Part shown: positions 27,764-43,617 of the stretch, in pieces
Numbering within the stretch: the first letter of the stretch is position 1
Layout: each line of letters begins with the position of its first letter
From: Nitrospirota bacterium
Lineage (GTDB): Bacteria > Nitrospirota > Nitrospiria > Nitrospirales > Nitrospiraceae
Assembly (NCBI GenBank): GCA_040755395.1
Contig: JBFMAX010000011.1
Span: forward strand, 62,001-126,000
Direction of reading: 5' to 3'
DNA length: 64,000 nt
The notes under the pieces: model-generated
Seen by the model: only the letters and a program-made list of their open reading frames with translations
The model's database searches: none
Told to the model about the DNA's origin: nothing
Translations under genes and position numbers: made by a program

Positions 27764-27992
27764 GGCGGTCGCTCCAACGGCCACGGGATACGATCAGGAT
27801 AGGTTCACTTCACAAGGGTAACCTGCTCTCCGGCGGAACACTATTCTGCATTGGGGGCAAGGAGTCCCTCGTCGGTAGGGAGGAAGGCAACGGCACGATG
27901 CGTGGTCTCAGATCGATTCCAATCGCCAAGAACAATTGAACCGGACTCGCGGTCGAGGCAAGCAGGGGGTGCTGGAGCCTGTTGACACGGGT

Positions 27993-28067
27993 TCGAACCT
28001 CCTTCGAGTCACAAGGCTCCTGATCCTCGCAGTCGTTCCGCTTAAACGCCCGTCACACCCCTTGCGT
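27993..28067 (+). repeat. 75-bp island-flanking inverted repeat, left copy
   Basis: By hand alignment 61 of 75 positions match the reverse complement of 43190-43264 with no gap. The core TTCGAGTCACAAGGC (28003-28017) is identical in both, as is the inner end CCCCTTGCGT. The two copies bracket the helicase-methylase-ATPase region. It may be an end of a mobile unit or two copies of a dispersed element inserted in opposite directions. Confidence 0.7.
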
Positions 28068-28602: not shown

Positions 28603-28631
28603 TTGACAAGTGGAACAGTTTGGAATAGTTT
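28603..28631 (+). promoter_or_regulatory. Candidate promoter with 10-bp tandem operator
   Basis: TTGACA (28603-28608) is followed after 17 bp by TAGTTT (28626-28631), a strong -35 with a weak -10. Inside and overlapping this lie two adjacent 10-mers, TGGAACAGTT (28611-28620) and TGGAATAGTT (28621-28630), differing by one base. They could be the operator of the small HTH protein encoded 38 bp downstream. Confidence 0.45.
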
Positions 28632-28668
28632 GCCCTCAATTTGCGCGACCTTCTCAGGAGGCGCACTC

Positions 28669-28863
28669 GTGACCAACCACGCCCTCACTATCCGGCAGGT
28701 GGCTGAATACCTCCAAGTGACTGAAAAGACCATTTACAAACTCGCCTGGGCTGGCCGGCTCCCCGGGTTTAAGGTCGGTAACACCTGGCGCTTCAAACGA
28801 GAAGACATTGACAAATGGATCGAGTCGAATAAGCGGAAAGCAGTGAAGCCAAAGCCTCGTTGA
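28669..28863 (+). CDS. Small excisionase/MerR-type HTH DNA-binding protein
   Basis: A GTG start behind AGGAGG gives 64 aa. The whole protein is one winged helix-turn-helix of the excisionase type: LTIRQVAEYLQVTEKTIYKLAWAGRLPGFKVGNTWRFKREDIDKW. Such proteins regulate integrative elements and defence operons. Its stop overlaps the TTG start of the helicase gene, so it leads the island operon and may autoregulate from the tandem 10-mers upstream. Confidence 0.82.
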   Translation: MTNHALTIRQVAEYLQVTEKTIYKLAWAGRLPGFKVGNTWRFKREDIDKWIESNKRKAVKPKPR

Positions 28864-31800
28864 GTACCAGTTTGGCCGACAACCGTTTGATACTCCCAAT
28901 TGGACAGCGCGTCTTGCTGCCTGGCCACTTCGATGCGCCGGTGATCTTGGAAGACGCCCGGCCACTCGGCGTAGATGACTCCGCCGGCTACGAGTGTCGG
29001 GTCCGGCTGCCCGACGGCACCCTCGAGGAAGCAGTCATCTCCCAGGCGGAAGCGGCCACGCTCTTCGGCACGGACCGGGAAGCGCCGACGGCGATCAAGC
29101 CCGCCGATGCGGAACGACTCCGACTGTTGATCGAGTCCGCCCGAATCCGGCTGGCCTACGCCCACGACCGCCAGTTCGCCGTGAGCCTCTCCGGCATCCG
29201 CACACTCCCTCACCAGATCGAGGCCGTCTACCAAGCCATGCTACCGCAGCCTCGCCTGCGCTTTCTCCTCGCCGACGACCCGGGGGCGGGCAAGACCATC
29301 ATGGCCGGCCTGCTCATCAAGGAGCTCAAGCTCCGGGAGGCCATCGAACGGGTCCTGATCCTCTGCCCCGCGCCGCTCACGCCCCAGTGGCAAGACGAAA
29401 TGCTCCGCTGGTTCGGGGAGTCCTTCGACATTATTTTTTCCGCCGTTGACCAGCAGCAGCTCACAAATCCGTGGCAGCGCTCCTCGCAGGTCATCTCCTC
29501 CATCGACTACGCAAAGCAGGATGATGTGCGTGAGCGCGTGTGGCAGCAGCGCTGGGACCTCGTCGTGGTGGACGAAGCCCATAAGTGCTCCGCGAGGACC
29601 GCATCGGGAGGGCAGGGGCGGGAGCCCAAGGTCGCCACGACCAAGCGGTACGACCTCGTCACGCGGCTCACCTCCCAGGCCGACCACGTGCTCCTTTTGA
29701 CCGCAACCCCACACCACGGGGACGAGGACAAGTTTTCGCACTTCCTGCGGCTCATCGATCCCGACCTTTTCCCGGAACCGCATCGACTCGGGAAGCAAGC
29801 GACGTCGATTCGGGAGAGCGTGTTTCGCCTCGGCAAGGATTCACCATGGTGCCTGCGCCGTCTGAAAGAGGATCTCAAGGATCTCAACGGCAACCGCCTG
29901 TTTCCCGACCGGCACGCCAGGACCGTGACCTTTCACCTCAACAGCGAGGAGTACGCCCTCTACAAGTCGGTCACGGCATACATCAACGAGTTCATTCCTC
30001 AGCAGACGGGACAGCGACGGTCGTCTGCCGCGCTCACCCGCACCGTCCTCCAGCGACGCCTCGTGAGTTCGACCTGCGCCATCCACGAGTCGCTGAAGCG
30101 GCGCCTCAAGAAGCAGCAGGATCTGCTCGACGAGTTGGAGGGGCTCTCCCCGGCCCAGCGGGCCAAGCGCCTCGCCGCCCTTCAGGGACGGCTACCCGAT
30201 GCGGAGCAAGAAGAGGATGACCTTGACGAGGAGGTCCGCGATCAGCTGGTCGACGAGTACACGGCAGCCCTCGAGCTGGAGCAGCTCCGTGCGGAGATCT
30301 CCGCCCTCAGGGAGTTGGTCGAGCAGGCCCGCAGGGTGCGGGAGCAGGCGAGCGATTCCAAGTTGGCCGCGTTGAAGAAGTGCCTCAGCGAGGCGCAGTT
30401 CGTCGAACTGAAAGACGGCCGAGGGAAACTCCTGGTCTTCACCGAACACCGCGACACGCTCAATTACGTCCGCGAGCATCTCGAGCGATGGGGGTTCACG
30501 ACCTGCGAGATCCACGGCGGCATGAACCCCCACGAACGCAAGCAGGCGCAGGAACAGTTCCGGACCACCGCGCAAGTGTGTGTGGCGACCGAGGCGGCGG
30601 GCGAAGGGATCAACCTCCAATTCTGCCACCTCATGATCAACTACGACATGCCGTGGAACCCGACGCGCCTGGAGCAGCGCCTCGGCCGCATCCACCGCAT
30701 CGGGCAGGACAGGGACGTCTACGCCTTCAACTTCGTGGCCACGGATTCCGAGGACGGGCAGCCCATCGTCGAGGGACGCATCCTGCATCGCCTCCTCGAG
30801 AAGCTGGACACGATGAACGAGGCCCTCGAAGGGCGCGTGTTCGACGTGATCGGCGAGGTGCTTTCGCTGAATGACGTCAACCTTCCCGACATGCTGCGAG
30901 AAGCGGCCTACGATCCGCGTCGGCTGGACGAGTACTTGGACCAGATCGACCGCATCGACCCGGCCAAGTTAAAGGAATACGAGAACGCCACGGGCATCGC
31001 GCTGGCTCGGAGCCACGTGGACTTCACGGGCTTTCAGCGCCGCAACCTGGAGGTCGAAGAAAAGCGGCTGATGCCACGGTATGTGGAGGCGCAGTTCATC
31101 GCGGCGGCTAAGGAAATCGGTCTTCGCGTGGAGCCACGGGCGGATGGCCTATGGCGCATCGAGCATGTCCTGGCCGACTTGCGGACTGAGCGGCTGCGGT
31201 CGGTTCAGCGCCTGGGAAAGGCCGACCCCTCGTACCGCAAGGTCACGTTCCACAAACACCACCTCGAGCAGTCCGCGCACGCGGACGCCGTCCTCATGGG
31301 ACCCGGCCATCCCCTCTACGCGGCGCTTGACGAGATGCTCAACGAGAAGCTGGCGCCCCTCCAGGGAGGGATCGGGTTCTACGTGGATCCGATGACGACC
31401 GAGCCGTTCAGGCTCCACTTCTTTGAGATTTCCATCCGCGGCAAGGACTCGAAGGGCAATGACGTCCCGCTGCACGGAGAGCTCGTGGCCGTCCGCGAGC
31501 AGCGCGGGCACTTCGAGATCGTACCAAGCGATAGCCTGCTCAATCTCCCCCCTTACCCGAATCCCCCGGCCATGGCTGATCCCGTGGCAATCCAGGCAGC
31601 GTCCGACTATCTCAAGAGCACCTATCAGCTGGAATGCCGCGCCCGTTCCCAGGAGGAACGGCAGCACTTCGCCCGCATCCGCCGGGATTATTTGGAGCGG
31701 TCTTTCGATGTCCGGATCAAACGCGCCCAGGAACGCGCCATGCGGCTTCTTGCGGAAGCAGCCACGAAGTCGGAATTCAAGCTGGCGGCGGACGAGGCGC

Positions 31801-32402
31801 GCAAGCACGTGGAAGAACTGCAACGGCAGCGTGAGGAACGGATCAGCAGCCTGGGGAGGCTGGAAATCGCCCGAACGGGGCCTGTGCGGCATGTGGCCAC
31901 GGCCATTGTGCTTGCGCCCGGCGCGGACACCGAAGCCCAGCTGGCGGATCTCGCGGACGAGCTCGACCCGAACATCCGAAGGAAGAGCGAGCTGGCCGCC
32001 GAGGACATGGTCGTGGTCGCCCTCAAGGAGGAGGGATTTCCCGAGGACCGCATCGAGCGCGTCGGTCACCTCAAGCTCGGCTTCGACGTGCGCGCACATC
32101 GGATTACGGACCAGGCGACAGGGGAGGTCTTCGTGAAGCGCATCGAGGTCAAGGGCCGGAGGCGCGGGCAGGCCGTCCGCCTCACCACGAACGAGTGGTA
32201 CAAGGCCCAGCAGTTGGCGGAGACCTACTGGCTCTATGTCGTGTGGGATCCCCTTGGGCCGAACCCGGAGCTGGTCCGCATCCAGAATCCCGCCGCGCGC
32301 CTGGACCACGTCAAGCGCGAGATCGTGGCGGCGCGATTCTTTGAGATTCCTGCGGATGCGGTCGATCTTGTGGCCAAATCAGACCCCACCAGGAGGACGT
32401 AA
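28860..32402 (+). CDS. SNF2/DEAH-type helicase with C-terminal DUF3883-like domain
   Basis: A TTG start overlapping the HTH stop gives 1180 aa. The ATPase motifs are DDPGAGKT (139-146), DEAH at 238-241, LTATPHHGDE (motif III) and QRLGRIHRIGQ from 606 (motif VI); VCVATEAAGEGINLQF precedes motif VI. A coiled, acidic insertion lies near residues 410-500. The C-terminus (about 1040-1160; VGHLKLGFDVRAH, RIEVKGRR, YVVWDP) resembles DUF3883, a nuclease-like fold with E-x-K. Such helicases occur in DISARM-like and helicase-methylase-ATPase loci and are thought to move on DNA. The 1-bp overlap with the next gene indicates coupling. Confidence 0.88.
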   Translation: MSTSLADNRLILPIGQRVLLPGHFDAPVILEDARPLGVDDSAGYECRVRLPDGTLEEAVISQAEAATLFGTDREAPTAIKPADAERLRLLIESARIRLAYAHDRQFAVSLSGIRTLPHQIEAVYQAMLPQPRLRFLLADDPGAGKTIMAGLLIKELKLREAIERVLILCPAPLTPQWQDEMLRWFGESFDIIFSAVDQQQLTNPWQRSSQVISSIDYAKQDDVRERVWQQRWDLVVVDEAHKCSARTASGGQGREPKVATTKRYDLVTRLTSQADHVLLLTATPHHGDEDKFSHFLRLIDPDLFPEPHRLGKQATSIRESVFRLGKDSPWCLRRLKEDLKDLNGNRLFPDRHARTVTFHLNSEEYALYKSVTAYINEFIPQQTGQRRSSAALTRTVLQRRLVSSTCAIHESLKRRLKKQQDLLDELEGLSPAQRAKRLAALQGRLPDAEQEEDDLDEEVRDQLVDEYTAALELEQLRAEISALRELVEQARRVREQASDSKLAALKKCLSEAQFVELKDGRGKLLVFTEHRDTLNYVREHLERWGFTTCEIHGGMNPHERKQAQEQFRTTAQVCVATEAAGEGINLQFCHLMINYDMPWNPTRLEQRLGRIHRIGQDRDVYAFNFVATDSEDGQPIVEGRILHRLLEKLDTMNEALEGRVFDVIGEVLSLNDVNLPDMLREAAYDPRRLDEYLDQIDRIDPAKLKEYENATGIALARSHVDFTGFQRRNLEVEEKRLMPRYVEAQFIAAAKEIGLRVEPRADGLWRIEHVLADLRTERLRSVQRLGKADPSYRKVTFHKHHLEQSAHADAVLMGPGHPLYAALDEMLNEKLAPLQGGIGFYVDPMTTEPFRLHFFEISIRGKDSKGNDVPLHGELVAVREQRGHFEIVPSDSLLNLPPYPNPPAMADPVAIQAASDYLKSTYQLECRARSQEERQHFARIRRDYLERSFDVRIKRAQERAMRLLAEAATKSEFKLAADEARKHVEELQRQREERISSLGRLEIARTGPVRHVATAIVLAPGADTEAQLADLADELDPNIRRKSELAAEDMVVVALKEEGFPEDRIERVGHLKLGFDVRAHRITDQATGEVFVKRIEVKGRRRGQAVRLTTNEWYKAQQLAETYWLYVVWDPLGPNPELVRIQNPAARLDHVKREIVAARFFEIPADAVDLVAKSDPTRRT

Positions 32403-33181
32403 TGCCTAGAAGAGTTTTGAAGAACAAGCCGCTGGTCGAAGCCATCTTGGAGCTGAAGTGGGTGATACCCACATCAAAAGCGGGTGAAATCGAAGTAGAT
32501 CCGCACTATCGGATCTTACTCGGCCGCTTCTCGGAGAGGGTGGAGCAGGACTATCCGTTTCATGAGCCTCTGCCAAGTGCTCAGATTCCCGACATGATGG
32601 CCGCACACATGGTACAGCACCGATTCCGGATCGGACAGGGGAAATGGCCTCTCATACAAATCGGTCCCGGGATCATGACGGTCAACGAAACTGAGGGATA
32701 CATCTGGGACGACTTCAAGCGGCGCTGCGAGAAAGCTGTCAGGGATCTCTTCGATGCACACCCCGCGAAGCAGAGCTTTGCCCTACGAGATCTAGCTCTT
32801 CGATATATCGACGCAGTTGACGCGGACTTCACAAAAGAGAGCGTGTTCGATTTCCTCGATGAGAAGATGAAGACGAAAATCTCGCTTCCCGAGACATTGT
32901 TTGAGGGCGGACGGGTAAATAGGAATCCGACCGTGTTCAATTGGCAGGTGTCGTTCCAGCACGATGATCCCGGTGGGTTTCTTACCGTGCGCTTTGCTGT
33001 GGGGCAGCGGAATGGAAATCCTGCGTTGATATGGGAGACGATTGTACAAGCGTCGGGCGCCCAGATACCGCCAATTCCTGACGGGTTCTCCGCTTGGCTT
33101 AGCAAAGCCCACGACCTAACCGATGACTGGTTTTTCAAGCTGATCGAGGGTGATCTCGAAAGGAGGTTTTGCGGTGAGTAG
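32402..33181 (+). CDS. TIGR04255-like protein
   Basis: The 259-residue protein starts MPRRVLKNKPLVEAILELKW, the opening typical of TIGR04255, a sporadic family of unknown function found in accessory islands. The remainder (FSERVEQDYPFHEPLP, IGPGIMTVNETEGYIWDDFKRR, ALRYIDAVD) agrees with that family's layout. No catalytic motif is visible. Its start overlaps the helicase stop and its end overlaps the next start by 8 bp. Base composition is lower in GC than the helicase gene, suggesting a different origin. Confidence 0.75.
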   Translation: MPRRVLKNKPLVEAILELKWVIPTSKAGEIEVDPHYRILLGRFSERVEQDYPFHEPLPSAQIPDMMAAHMVQHRFRIGQGKWPLIQIGPGIMTVNETEGYIWDDFKRRCEKAVRDLFDAHPAKQSFALRDLALRYIDAVDADFTKESVFDFLDEKMKTKISLPETLFEGGRVNRNPTVFNWQVSFQHDDPGGFLTVRFAVGQRNGNPALIWETIVQASGAQIPPIPDGFSAWLSKAHDLTDDWFFKLIEGDLERRFCGE

Positions 33182-33551
33182 CGATTTGGCAACTATCGAT
33201 CTAAAGACCAGCTCGCTGCAAACAGACATATCCGCATCTGGTCACTGGAGTGAAAGCTTCGTCAAGCGGCCAGAGATGCCATGGGTGACCAACATGAGGG
33301 TACAGCTAGCCGGAATGCTCCTCGCCAATGCGACATCTCCAGCAACAGCAGCCCCAGATTACTGGTTCGTCGAGGGGCAGCGTCGTGGCACGTTGACCGC
33401 AGCATGGGTTGAAGGCGTTGTCGGCCGACGAATCACACGTTCGGAGGCGTTGCGAATCGCTGCGCAGATACTGCAACAAGCCGAACAGGAGCGATTAGAG
33501 TTCGCTGCGCGGGAGGCGGAGCGAGGCATTCAGTGGGAGGGAGGAGAATGA
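33174..33551 (+). CDS. Unknown small protein of the island
   Basis: A GTG start behind AAGGAGG gives 125 aa. A Ser/Thr-rich N-terminus precedes an Ala-rich central segment (QLAGMLLANATSPATAAPDYWFVEGQRRGTL region) and a charged C-terminal helix. No family is recognised. It is translationally coupled to both neighbours (8-bp overlap before, ATGA after), which argues that it is a real part of the operon, perhaps an accessory subunit. Confidence 0.6.
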   Translation: MSSDLATIDLKTSSLQTDISASGHWSESFVKRPEMPWVTNMRVQLAGMLLANATSPATAAPDYWFVEGQRRGTLTAAWVEGVVGRRITRSEALRIAAQILQQAEQERLEFAAREAERGIQWEGGE

Positions 33552-34204
33552 TCTACGAGTATCCTGATCAAAACGCGCCGCTTCGTCAGGGTGACATATT
33601 TGTGGGCATCCCACGGATCGAGCTTTCGCTTCGCAGTGTGGTGCTCGCAGAGGCTGACGGAGAACGCGAGGCGAGATGGGAAGATGTGGCTGGTCGAAGC
33701 GATCCATTCAACATGATCGTGCCAGTCCGTCCGGTTGCGGCCATAATAGCGACGCAAGACTGCGATACCCTTCACAGCCGTGACATCACGCTCTGCGAGA
33801 TTCGCAAATTCCGCGACGTCGAGCGAAAGAGTAAGGACACCTCTGCGGCGAAGAGCTGGAAGAACATTATCACCCAACAGGCGCGAATAAATCAGAAATG
33901 GTTTTATCTTCCGCCAGATGACAACATTGGGTTTTCGGAAAAGATGGGGGTCGATTTCCTCGTTACGCTTCGCGTGCCGAGAGCCGACCTCGAAGCGCTG
34001 CGATCCCTGAGGAAGGGCCGATTGAATGCGGTCGCCGATGAGCATTTTAGAGAGCGGATTGCTGACTTCTTCAGGCGCTACCCCTACGATGAGTGGTATC
34101 CCCTCAACAAGGAAGAGCTGCAGACCTACCTGGAAGAGTATCCCGATGCGATACCCTTCCCGTGGCAAACCACTGCAGAGGGCTCAGGAAACGGATCGAC
34201 ATGA
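33548..34204 (+). CDS. Unknown protein of the island
   Basis: The ATG at 33548 overlaps the preceding stop and follows GGAGGAG; the product has 218 aa. It begins MIYEYPDQNAPLRQGDIFVGIPRIELS and has an IIATQDCDTLHSRDITLCEIRKF-like segment; short motifs of this kind occur in proteins adjacent to DUF1156 methylases, but I cannot name a family. The last 4 bp overlap the methylase ATG. There is no membrane segment. Cys74-Asp-Thr-Leu-His could bind metal but this is speculation. Confidence 0.6.
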   Translation: MIYEYPDQNAPLRQGDIFVGIPRIELSLRSVVLAEADGEREARWEDVAGRSDPFNMIVPVRPVAAIIATQDCDTLHSRDITLCEIRKFRDVERKSKDTSAAKSWKNIITQQARINQKWFYLPPDDNIGFSEKMGVDFLVTLRVPRADLEALRSLRKGRLNAVADEHFRERIADFFRRYPYDEWYPLNKEELQTYLEEYPDAIPFPWQTTAEGSGNGST

Positions 34205-36954
34205 CAGACGACCGCAGGCTCATTGAGGACTACCTGCCCATCGAGGCCATCAGCGCCGAGGCCTCGCGGGAGAAGTCGGTGCGCAAGGGCCACATCTCGA
34301 CGCTGCACCTCTGGTGGGCGCGGCGTCCCCTGGTCGCCTGCCGGGCGGCGGTGTACGGGGCGCTGGTGCCGGCGAGTCGGTTTCGCCCGGCGAATGGGCC
34401 CGAGGACAAGCGCGAAAGCCTGACCCGTGCCAACGCGGCGAAGTTCGTGGAGCGGCTCTGCCAGTACCCGGGCTCGCCGCAGACCATCGCCGAGGCGCAG
34501 AAGCACATCCTTGAAGCCCACGCCGAACGGCTCTCGGTCGAGACCGGAAAGCCGGTCACAGTCGACGACATCGTCGAAGGGCGGGCGCCAAGGCCCAAGG
34601 TGCTGGACATGTTCGCGGGGGGCGGCGCCATCCCACTCGAGGCGCTGCGGCTAGGGTGCGAGGCCTACGCGCTCGATCTCAACCCCGTCGCCCATATCAT
34701 CGAGCTTTGCACGCTCGTCTACCCCCAGAAGTACGGGAAGCCGGACCCCAGCGCGCGAGGCATGACCGGACCCAAGAACGCCAGTGGCGAGACGACATGG
34801 GGTGGCCTGGCCAAAGAGGTCCGCTACTGGGGTGAGTGGGTCCTCACGAAGGTCAAGGCCGAGATCGGCGACCTTTACCCGTTGATCCCCGACCCAGCTG
34901 CAAAAGGCACGAAGCCGCTCCAGCAGGCGGAGATGTGGCAAGCGAAGGAAGACGTTCCGCCGGGGTACCTCGTGCCGGTCGCCTACCTCTGGACGCGCAC
35001 CGTGCGCTGCAAGAACCCGACTTGCGGGGCGACCGTCCCGCTCGTGCGCCAGACGTGGCTGTGCAAAAAGAAGGACCGTTACGTGGCGCTCAAGATGGTG
35101 GCGCCCAAGGGCCACAAGCAGGTGCGCTTCGAGGTGGTCGAGAGCCACACTGAAAAAGGTCTCGGCTTCGATCCGGCAGGCTTCTCTAAGGGCGGCAACG
35201 CCACCTGCCCGTTCTGTGGGACGGTGGCGGACAGCGATTACGTGAAGGCCGAAGGACAGGCGGGACGCCTGTCGTCCCACCAGATGATGGCCATCGTCTG
35301 CACGAGGCCCGGTGAGAAAGGGAAGATTTACCTTTCCGCCGATGACTACCCCCAGTTCCGACCGGATGACGAGGCGATCCGCAAGCGTATCCAGGCGCTA
35401 TGCCAGCGCACGGGGTTGACGGTGCCGAGCGAACTGATCGAAGCCAACCCCCGTTCAATGGATACGCAACATTTTGGCTTCGAGACATGGAGCGAGCTCT
35501 TCACCCCCCGCCAGATGCTCTGCCTGCTCAGCTTTGCCGCGGCGGTACGAGAGGCGGGAGAACAGGCGTCCCGCCTGTTACAGGACGTGATAGACAGCCG
35601 AGACGGCTGTCGTCCTTCTGAAGAGCGAGAGCGGGCGAAGGCGGTGGCAACGTGCCTTTGCCTTCCGTTGAACAAGCTCGCTGACCTGAATTGTACTCTC
35701 ACGAGATGGAAGCTTGATGCTGAGCTGTGTGTCAATGCTTTTGGCCGACAGGCTCTTCCCATGGTTTGGGACTTTGCTGAGCAAGTACCTTATTCCGGGA
35801 TTGGTGGTTCTTGGCAAAGCCAGCTTGAGCGGACAGTTGTAGGTTGGAATGACGTTTGGAGTTTGGATAAACCCGCCACCGTCACCCGCGGCTCGGCCAC
35901 CGCGCTCCCCTGGCCCGCCGGTTCCTTCGACGCCGTCGTCACCGATCCGCCGTACTATGACAACGTCTCCTACTCGAATCTCTCGGACTTCTTCTACGTC
36001 TGGCTGAAGCGCACCATAGGCCACCTCTACCCGGAGCATTTCGCAGCGGAATGCACGCCGAAGAAGAACGAGATTATCGCAGCCTTCTACCGTCATGGTG
36101 GGAGCAAAGACAAAGCGCGCGCTACCTACGAGCAGATGATGGCCCAGTCGTTTGCCGAGGCGAACCGTGTCCTCAAATCCGGCGGCTCGATGGTTGTCGT
36201 TTATGCCCACAAAACAACCCTTGGCTGGTCCACGCTCGTGGATGCGCTCCGGCAGGCCGGGTTCACCGTCACCGAGGCCTGGCCGCTTGATACAGAGATG
36301 AAATCGCGACTCCTTGCCATGGAAACCGCGTCTCTGGCTTCCAGCATTTTCCTCGTCGCCAGAAAGCGTGACGGCGAAGGGACGGTCTCCTACGAAGACG
36401 AGGTTCACCCCGAGCTGGAGAGAATCGTCCGCGAGCGGGTGGATTCGCTCTGGAAGATGGGGATCACGGGCGCGGACCTCGTGATCGCGGCTGTCGGCGC
36501 GGGGCTCCGGGCCTACACCCGCTTCTCCCGGGTCGAGTACGCCAACGGCGAAGAGGTTCCGGCCGAGAAGTTCCTCGCCGAGGTGGAAGGGGTCGTCCTT
36601 GAAACGCTACTGGAGAAGATCTTCGGCATGCCGGGCAGCGGTGTGGCCGCCGTCGACGGGCCGAGCCGGTTCTACGTGCTCTGGCGCTACGCCTACAAGG
36701 CAGCCGAGATGGAGGCCGGCGAGGCCATCGTCTTCACCTACGGGCAGAACGTGGAGCTCGACGGCCAGAAGGGGCTTTCAACCAGACGCCATGCCCTGCT
36801 CGAAAAGAAGAAGGGGAAGTACCGACTGCGGGACTTTACGGAGCGGGGGAGGACGAGAAACTGGGCTTGCCGGAAGACGGAGGCGCGCCTGCCCCCCTCA
36901 TCGACGCGCTCCACCGCATCCTGTGGCTCGTGGAGAACCAGCCCCGCAACCTGA
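34201..36954 (+). CDS. DUF1156-type adenine-specific DNA methylase, frameshifted near the C-terminus
   Basis: The 917-residue frame starts MTDDRRLIEDYLPIEAIS with KGHISTLHLWWARRPL, the DUF1156 opening. It has the AdoMet-binding motif DMFAGGG (136-142), a zinc-ribbon-like pair of CxxxxC and CPFCG, and the catalytic DPPY at 582-585. After TERG the frame turns into unrelated sequence: a G-run at 36844-36848 has five G where six restore a frame that continues to 37184. A 17-bp palindromic repeat is embedded twice, and 35660-35870 has lower GC than its surroundings. The methylase probably marks host DNA in the island's defence system. Confidence 0.85.
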   Translation: MTDDRRLIEDYLPIEAISAEASREKSVRKGHISTLHLWWARRPLVACRAAVYGALVPASRFRPANGPEDKRESLTRANAAKFVERLCQYPGSPQTIAEAQKHILEAHAERLSVETGKPVTVDDIVEGRAPRPKVLDMFAGGGAIPLEALRLGCEAYALDLNPVAHIIELCTLVYPQKYGKPDPSARGMTGPKNASGETTWGGLAKEVRYWGEWVLTKVKAEIGDLYPLIPDPAAKGTKPLQQAEMWQAKEDVPPGYLVPVAYLWTRTVRCKNPTCGATVPLVRQTWLCKKKDRYVALKMVAPKGHKQVRFEVVESHTEKGLGFDPAGFSKGGNATCPFCGTVADSDYVKAEGQAGRLSSHQMMAIVCTRPGEKGKIYLSADDYPQFRPDDEAIRKRIQALCQRTGLTVPSELIEANPRSMDTQHFGFETWSELFTPRQMLCLLSFAAAVREAGEQASRLLQDVIDSRDGCRPSEERERAKAVATCLCLPLNKLADLNCTLTRWKLDAELCVNAFGRQALPMVWDFAEQVPYSGIGGSWQSQLERTVVGWNDVWSLDKPATVTRGSATALPWPAGSFDAVVTDPPYYDNVSYSNLSDFFYVWLKRTIGHLYPEHFAAECTPKKNEIIAAFYRHGGSKDKARATYEQMMAQSFAEANRVLKSGGSMVVVYAHKTTLGWSTLVDALRQAGFTVTEAWPLDTEMKSRLLAMETASLASSIFLVARKRDGEGTVSYEDEVHPELERIVRERVDSLWKMGITGADLVIAAVGAGLRAYTRFSRVEYANGEEVPAEKFLAEVEGVVLETLLEKIFGMPGSGVAAVDGPSRFYVLWRYAYKAAEMEAGEAIVFTYGQNVELDGQKGLSTRRHALLEKKKGKYRLRDFTERGRTRNWACRKTEARLPPSSTRSTASCGSWRTSPAT
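35256..35272. repeat. 17-bp element ACAGGCGGGACGCCTGT inside the methylase gene
   Basis: A partly palindromic 17-mer with the opposite-strand form ACAGGCGTCCCGCCTGT at 35562-35578. Both are in frame in the coding sequence. They resemble dispersed palindromic repeats that insert without breaking the frame. Confidence 0.55.
35562..35610. repeat. Palindromic insert in the methylase gene
   Basis: The 17-mer ACAGGCGTCCCGCCTGT (35562-35578) is followed by ACAGCCGAGACGGCTGT (35594-35610), whose arms pair perfectly around AGA. Together they write about 16 residues (ASRLLQDVIDSRDGCR region) that look foreign to the family, consistent with insertion of a repeat cassette. Confidence 0.5.
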
Positions 36955-37184
36955 ACCGCTTCCTCGACGAGGCCCGGCCTGATCGAGAGCGCTTGCGTCT
37001 CGTGGCCCAAGCACTGGCGGGGACCGCCCTCGCGGGCAAGAAGGACGATGGCGCGGAACACACGGTTGCCACGACGGCCGCTGAGCAGGCGGCCCTGAAG
37101 AAGCTGGTCGCCAACTGGCGGACCTTGATAGACCAGCGGCTTGCGGCAGATGAGGGCACGCTCTTCGACACGGGGAGGAAGTAG
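36850..37184 (+). pseudogene. Out-of-frame C-terminal remnant of the DUF1156 methylase
   Basis: This frame reads EDEKLGLPEDGGAPAPLIDALHRILWLVE and continues to a stop at 37184. The segment DALHRILWLVENQP...LDEARPD is what DUF1156 proteins show at their C-terminus. One extra G in the run at 36844-36848 would join it to the upstream frame. Either the gene is broken, or the run was miscalled, or the ribosome slips. A TTG at 36867 could start it separately, but no RBS is evident. Confidence 0.7.
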
Positions 37185-37205
37185 GATGGGGGTCGAAGAA
37201 TAACC

Positions 37206-37907
37206 ATGCCTTACCAAGCCAGAATCGTCTGCCTCGCCAACTCGAGAAAGCCACCGTCCGGCCGCTGTGTGGCAGGACGCGAAGTGGCCAGTGGTGGGTT
37301 TGGCCGGTGGATTCGCCCAGTCAGCGCGCGGCCGACTCGCGAAGTCTCTGAAGAGGAGCGCAGGTATGAAGACGGGCGCGATGTCAGGATTCTTGACGTC
37401 GTCGAGGTTCCGCTGTTGCAGCACGAGCCAGAATGCCACCAGCATGAAAACCATGTGATCGATGCGGAACGCTACTGGCAGCTTGCCAGCCGGGTAACGT
37501 GGCGCGACATCCAAAACGCCGTTGAGGATCCTGCCGGTCCGCTGTGGCTCAACGGATACTCGAGCTCGAACGGGCTGAACGACCGAGTTCCCGAGAACGA
37601 GGCGGTCCGACTCACGCGATCCTTGTATCTGGTGCGGCCAGAGCGCCTTTCATTGGCGGTCGTAGCCGAAGGTGGAGATTTCGGACCACGGCGGCGTCGC
37701 GTGCGGGCCGAGTTTCAGCTTTGCGGACATTCCTATCGTCTCGTGGTCACAGATCCATGGATCGAACAGCGATTGCTTTCAGGTGGGCAAGTGCGAGGGA
37801 TCGACGAGGCACTTGTATGCGTAAGCCTTGGGGAAGTCTTCCACGGCTACGCCTACAAGCTCGCGGCCACTGTGATCACCTCGGACCGTGCAGATGGTAA
37901 ATCATGA
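37206..37907 (+). CDS. Dual-OB-domain-like protein
   Basis: The 233-residue protein starts [26 protein letters not shown] with [22 protein letters not shown]. This resembles the small family called dual OB-containing domain, found next to DUF488 genes. Later come [16 protein letters not shown] and [20 protein letters not shown] folds suggest nucleic acid or nucleotide binding, but no catalytic motif is evident. It overlaps the following DUF488 gene by 4 bp. Confidence 0.65.
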
Positions 37908-38524
37908 ACGACGTGCTCTACACCATCGGCCACTCGACACACACGGCGGAGAAGGTCATCGAACTCCTGCGGCAACATGGCGTTACCGCAGTGGCCGATG
38001 TGCGGTCTCAGCCGTACAGCCGGATGAATCCGCAGTTCAATCGGGAGCCGTTCAGCTCGCGGCTGAAGGATGCGGGGATTGCCTACGTGTTTCTCGGCCG
38101 GGAGCTTGGGGCGCGTTCCGAGGACCGATCCTGCTACGAGAACGGAAAGGTCCGATACGACCTCCTGGCACGTACGCCCCTCTTTGCGGCTGGGCTGGAA
38201 CGTATCCTCCGCGGCATGAAGACGCAGACGATCGCGCTCATGTGCGCCGAAAAGGACCCGATCACTTGCCATCGCGCAATTCTGATTTGCCGACATCTCG
38301 CCAGCCGTGAAGTGGAGATCGCACATATCCTCGAAGATGGACGCCTCGAGAGCCAGGACGAAGCCGTTTTGCGTCTTCTTCGGGAGCTCGGACTTTCCGA
38401 GCCAGATCTTTTTCGGAGTCGTGATGAAGCGGTTGCCGAGGCCTATGCGCGACGTGGCGAGCAGATCGCGTATATGGAATCCTGGTCGACAGAAAAGCAG
38501 AAGAGCCGAGGAGTCGCTCGGTGA
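37904..38524 (+). CDS. DUF488 protein, long form
   Basis: The 206-residue protein has the DUF488 pattern [35 protein letters not shown] and [16 protein letters not shown], the last with a conserved Cys and CHR. An extra C-terminal region of about 60 residues is Arg/Glu-rich. DUF488 proteins are common in defence islands and their biochemical role is unknown. The gene overlaps both neighbours by 4 bp, so it sits in a tight translational chain. Confidence 0.85.
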
Positions 38525-38955
38525 AGCTTTATACCATTGGGTTCACGAAGACCACAGCGGAGTCTTTTTTCACCCGGCTCACCAAGGCCGGCGTGAAGAA
38601 GGTCATTGACGTGCGGCTCAATAACGTTTCTCAGCTCGCCGCATTCGCCAAGAAAGACGATCTGCGGTATTTCCTGCGAGCCATCTGCGGGATCGAATAC
38701 GAGCATAGGCCGGAACTGGCGCCGACCCAGGACATGCTGGACGAATACAAGAAGCGTCGCGGCGGGTGGGAACGATATGAGGATAGGTTCCTCAGATTGA
38801 TGGCCGAACGCAGGATCGAGGAGACGGTTTCGCGCTCCGCGGTGGATGAAGCATGCCTGCTCTGCAGCGAGGACAAACCGCATCACTGCCATCGTCGGCT
38901 TGTCGCGGAGTATTTGAAGAAGAACTGGGGTGACCTGGAGATCATTCATCTATGA
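38521..38955 (+). CDS. DUF488 protein, short form
   Basis: The 144-residue protein has [37 protein letters not shown] and LLCSEDKPHHCHRRLVAEYL, again with the conserved Cys and CHR. It is distinct in sequence from the preceding DUF488 protein and shorter, so the two are not a recent duplication. The DUF499 gene starts 41 bp after its stop. Confidence 0.85.
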   Translation: MKLYTIGFTKTTAESFFTRLTKAGVKKVIDVRLNNVSQLAAFAKKDDLRYFLRAICGIEYEHRPELAPTQDMLDEYKKRRGGWERYEDRFLRLMAERRIEETVSRSAVDEACLLCSEDKPHHCHRRLVAEYLKKNWGDLEIIHL

Positions 38956-38995
38956 GAATTGGCAAGCTGGATCGGCCAGTTATGGAGGCACGCCC

Positions 38996-41899
38996 TTGAG
39001 CACCCGAGCCCTTCGCCCGTGGACCGATCTCGTGAAGTTGCACCCCGATGTCGAAGGAGGTGCGCTCACAGAGGCGGTCTTCGCCATCGATCTCGGGGCC
39101 ATCGCCGCGGGCGATCCGAACGTCCCCGTTGTGAACCGCGACCCTGAGGCCTTCTTCCGCGCGACCTACCTGACGGCCGACCTGCAGAAGCTCCTCGAGG
39201 AGGTGCTGGCGTCGCTCGCCGGAAAGTCGGGCTACAACCGCGTCCTCAAGCTCCGAACCCCCTTCGGAGGAGGCAAGTCACACACCCTCGCGTCGCTCCT
39301 CCATGCCGCGCGAAAGCCGGAGGTCCTCGACGGCGTCCCCGAAGCGAAGGGCTTCGCCACGCCCAAGAACGTCGCCGTTGCCGTGTTCGATGGAGAGAAG
39401 TTCGACGCCCGCAACGGGAAGGAGCTCGACGGCGGCCGGACGATCCGTACGATGTGGGGTTGGATCGCCTGGCAAATCGACCCGGAGCGGGCGTTTCCCA
39501 TCGTGGCGGACCACGACCAGGATCGCGTCGCGCCGGGCGGCGATGTAATCCGGGACCTCCTCTCCAAAGGGGCAGGTGGACGCCCGGTGCTCCTGCTGCT
39601 CGACGAGGTCCTGAAGTACATGGAGCGGGCGGCCGCTGTGAGCGTGCTCGACTCGACCCTCCAGCGGCAGGCCAAGGACTTCTTCCAGAACCTGACCGTC
39701 GAGGTCGCGGGGAGCACGAACGCGGCGCTCGTCTACTCGCTCACCTGGAGCGCCCGGGAGGCGTTGGGGAACGTCGCCTTGCTCGCCGAGATCGACAAGC
39801 TTGCCGCGCGCGTCGACCAGCTTCGGGAGCCGGTCACCGGGGACGAGATTCTACCAATCCTGCAGCGTCGGCTCCTCGGGGCTCCTCCGGACCCTATCGT
39901 CGCCACGGAGGTCGCGACCGCCTATCAAGATGTCGTCACAGGGATGAAGCGGGCCTATGCCGAAACGCCAGCCGACCGGCAGCAGGCCGAGGAGGAAGGA
40001 CGTCTCCTGCGCGACCGGATGCGCGCCGCGTACCCGTTCCACCCCGCGCTGATCGACGTGATGAGGGAGAGGTGGACGGCCGTGGATGCCTTCCAGAGGA
40101 CAAGGGGCGCGCTCCGCTTCCTCGCCTCCTGCATGCACTCGCTCAAGGCACACGGCGGTGCCCAGCCCCTCTTGGGACCCGGCGACGTGCCGCTCAAGGA
40201 TGTGGATGTCCGGGTCAAGATGCTGAAGGAACTGGGCGTCCAGAACGACTACGACCCGGTGATCACCGCGGACATCGAGGGGCCGAACGCGCGGGCCAAG
40301 CGGATCGACGAGCGGATGGCGCGGGAGACGCCCGCGCTGGCGAGCGTGAAGCCGGCAACGCGCCTTGCCACCGCCATACTTCTGTACTCGTTCGGTGGCC
40401 TTCGGCGAGAAGGAGCCGGAGACTCGGAAACGCTTCCTCCGGGAGTGACCGAGAGCGAGCTCCTCGCGGCCTGCGTGGGGCCTGACTTGGACAACATCAC
40501 GGCAACAGCGGTGCTGTCCGAGCTCCGCAACGCCTGCCTCTACCTCCACTATGACGGCGTCCGCTACTGCTTCAAGAAGGACCCCAACGTCACGAAGCTG
40601 ATCGAGGACGCGGAGCAGACCGTCTCCCGCGAGGAGGCCCAGTCCAAAGGGCGCGGCCCCGTCCGAGACAAGATCAAGGAAATGCTCGACGCGCGGCTCG
40701 CGGGACACCACACGGCCGTCGTGTGGCCTGGGAAGAGCCAGGAGATCCCTGATGAAGATCCCCGCTTCCTGGTCGTCTACCTCCCGCTGGAGTTCGCGGG
40801 GGAGAGCAAGGCCGACCAGGAGCGTCTGGCCAAGGAGTACCTCTCGAAGCATGGCGATAAGCCCAGGCGCTACCGGAACGGTCTTGGGCTCGCCATCCCC
40901 GACAAGAGGCAGATCGAGGCGCTCCGTCGAGCGGTCCGCTACCTCCTCGCCATCGAGCGGGTGGACGCGAAGAAGCAACAATTGCGCTTGACCAAGGACC
41001 AGTTGGACCAGCTAAAAGAACGGAAGCGTACCGAGGAGGCTGCGGCGGAGTCCTGCTTCCGCGACCTGTACGCGGCGGTGTGGTTGCCGCGCGTCGAGAA
41101 TGGGGGGATCGACGTCGAACGGGTGGAACGAGGGGGCCGGCCGCTTCAGGCTACCGGCATTCACGAACGGATCATGGAGCTCCTCACGAGTGTCGGGACT
41201 CCCCGCGTGCATGGCAGCGTCACGCCGCGAAAGATCGCGGATCGGGTGAAGCTGGGAGAGCCGGTTCCCCAAGGCGGGGCGCCCGTGCTGGGTCTCAAGG
41301 CGTCCGAGATCCTGGAATCCTTTTTCAGAGACATCGCTCCCCCGCGCCTGGAGTCTTCCGGCGTTCTTCGGAAGGCCATCGCCCGGGGAGTCACAGAAGG
41401 AACCTTCGCCTACACGAGCGGCCCGCAACCTGCCCTTGGCGCGGATGGAAAGTTCCAGGTGAGCCGCGATAAGGTCGTGGTCGGACGGGCCCTTGCCGAA
41501 GACGAGGTGGATTTCGAATCCGGCTTCCTGATGGTCCCTGGGGCCGTTCCTGATGCGGTGACCTCGCCGGGGGCTCCGCCGACCGTACCTGGCATGCCGG
41601 CTCCCACTCCCGGAACACCCACGCAACCTGCGGCTCCCGGCGGCGCTCCGGCCCCGATCCCGGGTGCGCCCGTCGCCGGACGGCAGAGCACCGTCCGCCT
41701 TGCCTTCAAGGCCACGAGAGACCAAATCTTCAAGGCGTTCCCGGCTATCGCCAACCTCGCCGACGAGTCGGATGAAGGCAAGGTCAAGGTGAATGTCGAA
41801 GGGACTTCTGCAAAGGGCTTCGACCCTTCATGGCTTCGCAACGCGGTCTACGAACCACTGGACGAGGCGGACATCGAGAAGCTCCCCGATGATCGATAG
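38996..41899 (+). CDS. DUF499-type ATPase
   Basis: A TTG start 8 bp after GGAGG gives 967 aa (an in-frame upstream start is less likely). Motifs are PFGGGKSHTL with Walker A Lys94, LLLLDEVLKYM with D203/E204 (Walker B), NLTVEVAGSTNAALVYSL (sensor-like) and ENGGIDVER later. A Pro/Gly/Ala-rich linker lies near residues 860-905 (PGAPPTVPGMPAPTPG). DUF499 ATPases occur with DUF1156 methylases and helicases in archaeal and bacterial islands. The protein probably acts with the methylase and helicase on DNA. Confidence 0.87.
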   Translation: MSTRALRPWTDLVKLHPDVEGGALTEAVFAIDLGAIAAGDPNVPVVNRDPEAFFRATYLTADLQKLLEEVLASLAGKSGYNRVLKLRTPFGGGKSHTLASLLHAARKPEVLDGVPEAKGFATPKNVAVAVFDGEKFDARNGKELDGGRTIRTMWGWIAWQIDPERAFPIVADHDQDRVAPGGDVIRDLLSKGAGGRPVLLLLDEVLKYMERAAAVSVLDSTLQRQAKDFFQNLTVEVAGSTNAALVYSLTWSAREALGNVALLAEIDKLAARVDQLREPVTGDEILPILQRRLLGAPPDPIVATEVATAYQDVVTGMKRAYAETPADRQQAEEEGRLLRDRMRAAYPFHPALIDVMRERWTAVDAFQRTRGALRFLASCMHSLKAHGGAQPLLGPGDVPLKDVDVRVKMLKELGVQNDYDPVITADIEGPNARAKRIDERMARETPALASVKPATRLATAILLYSFGGLRREGAGDSETLPPGVTESELLAACVGPDLDNITATAVLSELRNACLYLHYDGVRYCFKKDPNVTKLIEDAEQTVSREEAQSKGRGPVRDKIKEMLDARLAGHHTAVVWPGKSQEIPDEDPRFLVVYLPLEFAGESKADQERLAKEYLSKHGDKPRRYRNGLGLAIPDKRQIEALRRAVRYLLAIERVDAKKQQLRLTKDQLDQLKERKRTEEAAAESCFRDLYAAVWLPRVENGGIDVERVERGGRPLQATGIHERIMELLTSVGTPRVHGSVTPRKIADRVKLGEPVPQGGAPVLGLKASEILESFFRDIAPPRLESSGVLRKAIARGVTEGTFAYTSGPQPALGADGKFQVSRDKVVVGRALAEDEVDFESGFLMVPGAVPDAVTSPGAPPTVPGMPAPTPGTPTQPAAPGGAPAPIPGAPVAGRQSTVRLAFKATRDQIFKAFPAIANLADESDEGKVKVNVEGTSAKGFDPSWLRNAVYEPLDEADIEKLPDDR

Positions 41900-42047
41900 G
41901 CCTATGGGTCTAGGATCAAGCGATCTGCGGGATAGACCGCAAGATGTTGACCTGCTGTTGGTATTCAAGCTGCGGATGGAGCGACCGCTCTGTATGAAGA
42001 AGCTAGATCTGTACTGTTTTCCTTCACGCTGCCAGCGGGCCTGACCA

Positions 42048-43094
42048 ATGCCAGATCAACGCTCTCCCTCGCATGACGATCGTTGGGGCGGACATGTGCC
42101 CTGGGCGCTTCGTTATCCCGTCATCTCGACCAGGGGAGACTATCGAACGTTCCTCACGATGCTAAGCGAGAGGTTGTATCAGTTGTTTCTGTACAACGAG
42201 TGCCAAATTTCAAACGTAAGCCATTTTGGCGCTCGCTTAGCTTCTGAGTCCCTGATGCGATACCGTCATGATGCAAAACCAGCGTTCGCTCTCAGGATCA
42301 AGACCTACTTTTCGCCTGAAACGCTAGATTGTGAGGCCAGGTCCAAGTCATACGAGGATCAGGAAGAACGAGAAGTCAATAGGCTTCAACGCGAATATAA
42401 TCTCGTAGCAATTCCTGGACACGGGTACAATTCTGAGAAAGCCCAACAGCTTCACGGCGAATTGCAGATTGCTCAAATGAAAGCTTCCGTCTCGCGTACC
42501 TCACGCATCAAAGACCATTGGAATCAGTTACTCCCTGATCGTCTTGAGGTCCTGCAGTGTTTGCTATCTTTACTCGCCCAAGACGGACGCCATGAAGCTC
42601 TTGACTCATTCCAGCGTGACATTCGCCGTTTCATGGCGGACAGCGGCGTGCAGCTTAACATCAAGGGGAATCCACCCTTGATCCTACCGCTTGAAGAACC
42701 CTTGCTGCAGAAGGAAGTCCTTGACAAAGTTCTACCTCGATTGGAGGCAACATTCCCTGAAAGGGCAAGGGATCTGGGCAGCGCATACCACGACCTGCTT
42801 AAAGGAGTGGACACCAATACCGTATTCGGGAATGCCTTTAAAGCGCTCGAAGAACTTGCTCGCAACCTCACAGGTGATGGATCACTAAAGCTGAGTGATC
42901 GGGCAGCCCTTGAAAAGCACTTCCCGAAGCTACACGGAACCATCAGAGCATCCATCCTCAAGCTTGCTGGCCACAGGGGAGATGAAGGTGCACATGGGCG
43001 GAAAGGGCCTGACGAATGGGAAATCCGGTATCTGCTTCTGAGTATCTGTAACGTCGCCCTGCTACTGTTGGAGTACAAGGACCACTGTGGCTAA
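42048..43094 (+). CDS. Putative abortive-infection-like protein with HEPN-type motif
   Basis: The 348-residue protein is rich in Arg/Gln/Lys and lower in GC than most neighbours. The C-terminus has LHGTIRASILKLAGHRGDEGAHGRKGPDEW, where R310-x5-H316 fits the R-x4-6-H motif of HEPN RNases, followed by LLLSICNVALLLLEY, as in Abi-C domains. The N-terminal two thirds is not recognised. It lies 148 bp after the DUF499 gene and may be an independent defence gene. The RBS is weak, so the start is uncertain. Confidence 0.55.
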   Translation: MPDQRSPSHDDRWGGHVPWALRYPVISTRGDYRTFLTMLSERLYQLFLYNECQISNVSHFGARLASESLMRYRHDAKPAFALRIKTYFSPETLDCEARSKSYEDQEEREVNRLQREYNLVAIPGHGYNSEKAQQLHGELQIAQMKASVSRTSRIKDHWNQLLPDRLEVLQCLLSLLAQDGRHEALDSFQRDIRRFMADSGVQLNIKGNPPLILPLEEPLLQKEVLDKVLPRLEATFPERARDLGSAYHDLLKGVDTNTVFGNAFKALEELARNLTGDGSLKLSDRAALEKHFPKLHGTIRASILKLAGHRGDEGAHGRKGPDEWEIRYLLLSICNVALLLLEYKDHCG

Positions 43095-43189: not shown

Positions 43190-43264
43190 ACGCAAGGGGC
43201 GTGACAGGCGCTCAAGCGGCGGGAAGGCGACGATCACGGGCCTTGTGACTCGAAAAAGGTTCGA
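43190..43264 (-). repeat. 75-bp island-flanking inverted repeat, right copy
   Basis: It is the reverse complement of 27993-28067 at 61 of 75 positions by hand, without gaps. Both copies lie just outside the island genes: the left one 600 bp before the HTH gene and the right one 95 bp after the HEPN-like gene. Confidence 0.7.
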
Positions 43265-43300
43265 GCGCGCTGCAAGAGGGATCCGCTAAGTGCAAGACAC

Positions 43301-43476: not shown

Positions 43477-43543
43477 GTTGAGGACTTTATCCCGTCGGCA
43501 AGAGCAATCACATGGCCTCCGGGTCGAGCAAGCTCGGTTTGGT

Positions 43544-43617
43544 GGTCCCAACGGGATTCGAACCCGTGTCTGAGCCTTGAGAGGGCTCCGTCCTAGGCCA
43601 GGCTAGACGATGGGACC
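43544..43617 (-). tRNA. tRNA-Glu(CUC)
   Basis: The reverse complement starts GGTCCCATCGTCTAGCC and ends CGTTGGGACC. Acceptor stem GGTCCCA/TGGGACC, anticodon stem GAGCC/GGCTC around loop CTCTCAA with anticodon CTC, and T-arm with GGTTCGAATCC are all present. The 3' end faces the accessory island at lower coordinates, the usual integration side for islands. Confidence 0.93.

Follow-up and report, generated by a model that had tools for sequence, protein, structure and literature searches.

An Hma-type operon of a Nitrospirota bacterium interrupted by two separable gene cassettes

The stretch of DNA analyzed here, in the following called the window, comprises 64,000 nt from a Nitrospirota bacterium and lies within a 4.1-Mb genome of 74 contigs. 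Between positions 28669 and 41899 it carries ten genes on the + strand, in the order HTH, hmaA, TIGR04255, U1, U2, hmaB, DuOB, DUF488a, DUF488b and hmaC. The genes HTH and hmaA overlap by 4 bp, hmaA and TIGR04255 by 1 bp, TIGR04255 and U1 by 8 bp, and U1/U2 as well as U2/hmaB by 4 bp each. Further downstream DuOB/DUF488a and DUF488a/DUF488b again share 4 bp each, and DUF488b overlaps hmaC by 26 bp, provided that hmaC starts at GTG. The sole real intergenic gap of the run measures 21 bp and separates the true end of hmaB (37184) from DuOB (37206). Gene order, strand and the 8-bp, 4-bp and 1-bp overlaps given in an earlier sequence-only reading of this DNA were reproduced on the ORF map. The first gene (28669..28863, +) encodes a small regulator of the HTH type (excisionase/MerR-like), which was matched by the PADLOC mad1 HMM with 42.7 bits and has a homolog at the same place in the nearest relative of the window operon (locus L006 of genome G216). 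Its start codon GTG 28669 sits behind an AGGAGG ribosome-binding site and is more likely to be used than TTG 28603.

Three genes of the run form the core. HmaA (28860..32402, +; PADLOC HmaA 634.7 bits) is an SNF2 helicase with a C-terminal PD-(D/E)XK-like nuclease domain of the NOV_C/DUF3883 type, in which Pfam recognized SNF2, Helicase_C and NOV_C (the last with 49.9 bits at 1049-1139). The Walker A motif GAGKT, the DEAH motif and the D1076...EVK signature of the predicted NOV_C nuclease are intact. HmaB (34201..37184, +; PADLOC HmaB 482.9 bits, Pfam DUF1156 88.4 bits) is a DUF1156 DNA methyltransferase with a DPPY motif and the SAM-binding motif FAGGG. HmaC (38930..41899, +; PADLOC HmaC 366.9 bits, Pfam DUF499 90.2 bits) is a DUF499 AAA+ ATPase without an N-terminal HEPN domain and carries the motifs GGGKS and LLLLDE. 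Each of the three PADLOC models was matched over most of its length. Membership in Hma was judged from HMM scores and co-location. The proposal, made from the sequence alone, that these genes form an Hma system depended on their being co-located elsewhere as well, and it holds: a dozen further genomes and plasmids carry hmaA, hmaB and hmaC together and in this order. The domain calls made alongside it (helicase, TIGR04255, methylase, dual-OB, DUF488 pair, DUF499) were likewise recovered with PADLOC, Pfam and NCBIfam HMMs.

DUF3780, PglZ and HKD domains were not matched in any protein of the operon by PADLOC, Pfam or NCBIfam HMMs, which places it in type 1 of the 2026 classification of DUF499-centered BREX-related (BR) systems (PMC12839542). 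In agreement with this type, the NOV_C score and the D...EVK motif point to a helicase with a C-terminal PD-(D/E)XK domain, and the DUF499 ATPase is accompanied neither by DUF3780 (type 2) nor by PglZ (type 3). An N6-methyltransferase with an intact frame also belongs to this type; in the window the DUF1156 match and the DPPY motif are present, but the frame is broken near 36845-36849. The operon is a genuine Hma or type-1 BR system interrupted by two cassettes. Its proteins stay below the cut-offs of the NCBIfam anti-phage equivalogs for DUF1156 (NF042963, 203.7 vs. 1000 bits) and DUF499 (NF042962, 176.9 vs. 1200 bits), and with the PADLOC HmaC model the window protein scores 366.9 bits vs. 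about 1140 bits for other Hma operons of the family Nitrospiraceae. The core proteins of the window share only approximately 30-35% identity with those of the Hma lineage prevalent in this family. Judged by these scores and identities, the window Hma represents a lineage that is remote from the PADLOC consensus.

The methylase family was correctly recognized at the outset, but the frame break in hmaB had been missed. The ORF that stops at 36954 lacks the genuine C-terminus, which is encoded further on in a different frame (36867-37184), and compared with the in-frame hmaB of L006 one base is missing in a G run at approximately 36845-36849. The break could reflect a genuine mutation or a mistake in the assembly. 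Since the frame is broken, methylase activity in the window strain is uncertain; the enzyme may be inactive, unless the assembly is at fault. Programmed frameshifting was rejected, because the L006 relative has a plain continuous frame.

Comparison with L006 revealed where the core varies. HmaA and HmaC are 83% and 80% identical, respectively, and the middle of HmaB falls to 20-47% identity vs. mostly 60-92% in its flanking parts; the extreme C-terminus of HmaC drops to 17-60%. Divergence that is limited to the center of HmaB, with motor and ATPase kept constant, is a signature of specificity switching in restriction-modification systems. The pattern is that of a swapped specificity region, and the center of HmaB would represent the variable target-recognition region. 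With this region indicated by the comparison, mapping of the target site by methylome sequencing is straightforward. In L006 DuOB-DUF488-DUF488 is missing between hmaB and hmaC, which share 4 bp, and TIGR04255-U1-U2 is present. The relative therefore has the same operon minus one cassette, which marks the latter as a clean insertion or loss, and the two operons constitute a natural with/without pair for DuOB-DUF488 at approximately 80% core identity. Directly 3' of hmaC, genome G216 encodes an AAA ATPase and an S8 protease (L006:2115-5730) that resemble the anti-phage IteA/IteS models, with 215.5 and 77.4 bits, both below the cut-offs.

The cassette in the gap between hmaA and hmaB consists of a gene encoding a TIGR04255 protein (32402..33181, +; NCBIfam TIGR04255 112.9 bits, cut-off 30), U1 (33174..33551, +; 125 aa) and U2 (33548..34204, +; 218 aa, with the motifs R-QGDIF ... 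QDCD). The trio is shared with L006, L007 and L009, where U1 has homologs at the same place and the U2 homologs are 64-68% identical; it is not mentioned in PMC12839542. U1 gave no HMM match in PADLOC, Pfam, NCBIfam or PHROGs. U2 is present in four of 175 genomes of the family and had no match in the plasmids, phages and viral contigs; its AlphaFold2 model, built from a 4-row alignment, has a mean pLDDT of 48. In L007 and L009 the three genes occur without Hma, in L009 beside an integrase. In L007 (L007:12314-16364) they adjoin genes for a C5-methyltransferase, a MutY-like glycosylase and an HNH (IscB-like) protein, a cluster which is restriction-like with the glycosylase as an unusual partner. 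A TIGR04255 gene followed by two hypothetical genes was also observed in a prophage on a Pantoea plasmid (L160:5983-7831) between lysis and terminase genes, a stretch that is the usual home of phage accessory genes. The two hypothetical genes are not homologous to U1 and U2.

The gap between hmaB and hmaC is occupied by DuOB, a dual OB-fold protein (37206..37907, +; PF22557 225.4 bits, PDC-M45A 277.4 bits), DUF488a (37904..38524, +; PDC-M45B 286.8 bits) and the N3a-like DUF488b (38521..38955, +; PDC-M45C 251.1 bits, DUF488-N3a 42.4 bits), which has the active-site sequence CSEDKPHHCHR. With M45A, M45B and M45C matched together and in order, the unit belongs to PDC-M45. That the accessory genes are not explained by the core, as the sequence-only reading had stated, remains correct; they are, however, two separable cassettes, one of them already catalogued, and not random extras. 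Both DUF488 proteins retain the motif CxE...CHR in 75 of 75 cassettes, so that two Cys-dependent enzymes are to be expected. Nucleic-acid end processing has reportedly been predicted for the DUF488 clade by Burroughs and Aravind in 2023. Sequences of the PDB yielded nothing meaningful for DuOB and DUF488b. Although bacteria commonly encode DUF488 proteins, no role has been assigned to these; a standalone three-gene unit that was repeatedly captured into one junction of a restriction-like operon offers a concrete handle on the function of the unit.

A survey of 85,000 genomes retrieved 80 DuOB loci from many phyla. The order DuOB-DUF488-DUF488 is kept in most of them, mostly with no Hma nearby, and standalone units are often found among housekeeping genes. 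Hma is consequently not required by the unit, which may not be a defense module at all. Wherever it does lie inside an Hma operon, it occupies the gap between hmaB and hmaC (the window, L051, L058/L103, L092 and L113). The unit is not mentioned in PMC12839542. Eleven of the 80 loci (L086, L088, L102, L104, L105, L106, L110, L112, L118, L119 and L128) encode nearby a related protein with Schlafen AlbA_2 and HATPase_c_4 domains, in at least L106 just upstream, and this protein is a possible fourth cassette partner.

The tree, computed from 75 units and 557 columns, places the nested copies at three positions: the window with L074, L051 with L103, and L092 with L113. A single clade for all six copies was rejected by the AU test (p=4e-5, a value which serves only as a guide, because the nested groups were named after the tree had first been seen), and a topology joining the four copies of the common Hma lineage was not rejected (p=0.10). 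The tree thus supports at least two independent captures of DuOB-DUF488 into the gap between hmaB and hmaC and suggests three. The unit closest to that of the window, L074 (79% identity in the joined alignment), has stayed intact. Behind it, at the same junction, the N-terminal part of HmaC persists as a frameshifted remnant (L074:11732-12420), from which it follows that this unit was at one time nested in an operon of this kind and outlasted it. Repeated capture in one gap suggests that the cassette works with, or backs up, the defense system.

Both gaps are variable in other Hma operons. The following counts are small and were made by hand from ORF maps and annotation tables. In 12 operons that were not picked for DuOB-DUF488 and include the window, extra genes were found between hmaA and hmaB in all 12 and between hmaB and hmaC in at least seven; in 11 plasmid operons the respective numbers are seven and four. 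The gaps contain HigBA, HicAB, Fic, MNT-HEPN, HEPN, DUF433/DUF5615, PIN and GmrSD, furthermore PRTase-CE, Schlafen AlbA_2, M78, macro, DUF1828, PDDEXK_3 and DUF3644, and those contents that belong to a known family are mostly toxin-antitoxin or conflict genes. In the window the cassette genes have a GC3 of 0.57-0.72 vs. 0.79-0.83 for the core. Effectors embedded in BREX and BR loci have already been published (PMC12839542).

Downstream of the operon, 148 bp past hmaC, lies an orphan gene (42048..43094, +) with a GC3 of 0.54 vs. 0.81. The HEPN-like assignment proposed for it from the sequence could not be confirmed: no Pfam match reached the cut-off, NCBIfam and PHROGs gave no match, and no plasmid homolog was found. 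The gene contains an RX5H motif (RGDEGAH), which alone is weak evidence for HEPN. The gene is absent downstream of HmaC in L006, and no homolog was detected in the collections searched. The island is bracketed by an inverted repeat with a left arm of 90 nt (27978..28067) and a right arm (43190..43279) to which the left is 78% complementary. Related copies elsewhere in the genome (contig C3) identify the repeat as a dispersed genomic one, and it was discarded as the boundary of a mobile element. At the right edge lies a tRNA-Glu (CTC) gene (43540..43617, -). An empty site was found in genome G077, where the left-flank gene, tRNA-Glu and glnS adjoin with approximately 170 bp from the left-flank gene to the tRNA. 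Genomes G193 and G249 harbor 30-47-nt end fragments of the same tRNA-Glu, and each locus has an ORF which by its N-terminal sequence is a candidate tyrosine integrase. Empty site, tRNA fragments and integrase-like ORFs in relatives indicate that the island sits at an integration hotspot of the family (loci L188, L190, L191 and L194). For the window island, a search for an attL copy of the tRNA-Glu end was negative; the island has lost both its integrase and its att copy.

Taken together, we favor the reading, with a probability of roughly 0.6, that a restriction-modification-like Hma system carries two independently mobile cassettes, most likely backup or guardian modules. We infer that the core defends, that the cassettes guard it, and which chemistry they use. 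HmaB would mark self DNA, the specificity being determined by the variable target-recognition region at its center. The scanning complex would be built by HmaC, whose variable C-terminus would contribute to recognition, and HmaA would translocate on unmarked DNA and cut through its C-terminal nuclease. Both cassettes would be co-expressed with the core and respond once it fails or is inhibited. For the DuOB-DUF488 unit a Cys-dependent processing of nucleic-acid ends or nucleotides appears most likely, with DuOB holding the nucleic acid. An antiphage role of HmaA has been reported by others, according to a citation in PMC12839542, and Hma occurs in 26 phyla (PMC8565338); it is widespread yet little studied.

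A more elaborate form of this reading, which we put forward only tentatively, regards both gaps as dedicated bays for interchangeable guardians, TIGR04255-U1-U2 as an undescribed three-gene defense unit, and DuOB-DUF488-DUF488 as a unit with its own nucleic-acid chemistry that would be triggered by a block of Hma. The distribution of extra genes could also arise if the operon tolerates insertions at the gaps and selection removes them from its other parts. If the gaps were neutral landing places, the cassettes would be passengers that are expressed through the operon, retained by addiction and functionally unconnected with Hma. The diversity of the gap contents, including classic addiction pairs and an IS element, and the GC3 of the cassettes, unlike that of the core, fit such passengers; however, most gap genes of known family are conflict genes and not a random sample, and a single rare three-gene unit entered one junction more than once, so that we consider this explanation unlikely. 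Improbable, too, are functional Hma subunits, of which DuOB-DUF488-DUF488 would add DNA modification or end processing and TIGR04255-U1-U2 would modulate HmaA or HmaB. Tight translational coupling, the repeated capture of DuOB-DUF488 at one junction and the catalytic residues conserved in both DUF488s would suit subunits, but the near-identical core of L006 lacks DuOB-DUF488, most copies of the unit have no Hma nearby, it outlives hmaC in L074, and at L007 and L009 TIGR04255-U1-U2 stands with no Hma. That the island is decaying and non-functional in the window strain, as the hmaB frame break and the loss of integrase and tRNA-Glu att fragment could suggest, is very improbable: the remaining nine ORFs of the operon are open, none of the catalytic motifs checked is damaged, and the loss of one base in a G run, as seen here, is a frequent assembly error.

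Among known systems, BREX type 3 and DISARM share a homologous SNF2 helicase with the window operon (DrmD 427 bits, BrxHI/II 358 bits in PADLOC), and BREX also shares a BrxC-like ATPase. Unlike both, the operon has no genes for PglZ, BrxL, DrmA, DrmB or DrmC. BREX was dismissed because its defining partners PglZ and BrxL are missing, and DISARM because NCBIfam DrmD reached 377.7 bits vs. a cut-off of 610 with no DrmB or DrmC match. The MADS set (mad1-mad8) is represented by no more than the small HTH (mad1, 42.7 bits) and one weak methyltransferase match (mad2, 38.3 bits), and this assignment was rejected as well. The PADLOC defense candidate PDC-M45 agrees with the second cassette in all three genes and their order (251-287 bits each), but it stands alone, whereas the window unit is nested in an Hma operon. 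In the type IC restriction locus EcoprrI, which is the precedent studied best, prrC encodes a tRNA nuclease that becomes active upon inhibition of the restriction enzyme (PMC12707154). As in the window, an unrelated module is embedded between the core genes of a restriction-like operon; core and modules are different, and a guardian function of the window cassettes is proposed by analogy with PrrC. The closest correspondence is with Hma and type-1 BR systems (PMC8565338, PMC12839542), with which the operon shares the helicase-PD-(D/E)XK protein, the DUF1156 methylase and the DUF499 ATPase in the same order and the absence of PglZ and DUF3780; it differs from them by an HmaC without HEPN fusion and by the additional cassettes TIGR04255-U1-U2 and DuOB-DUF488-DUF488.
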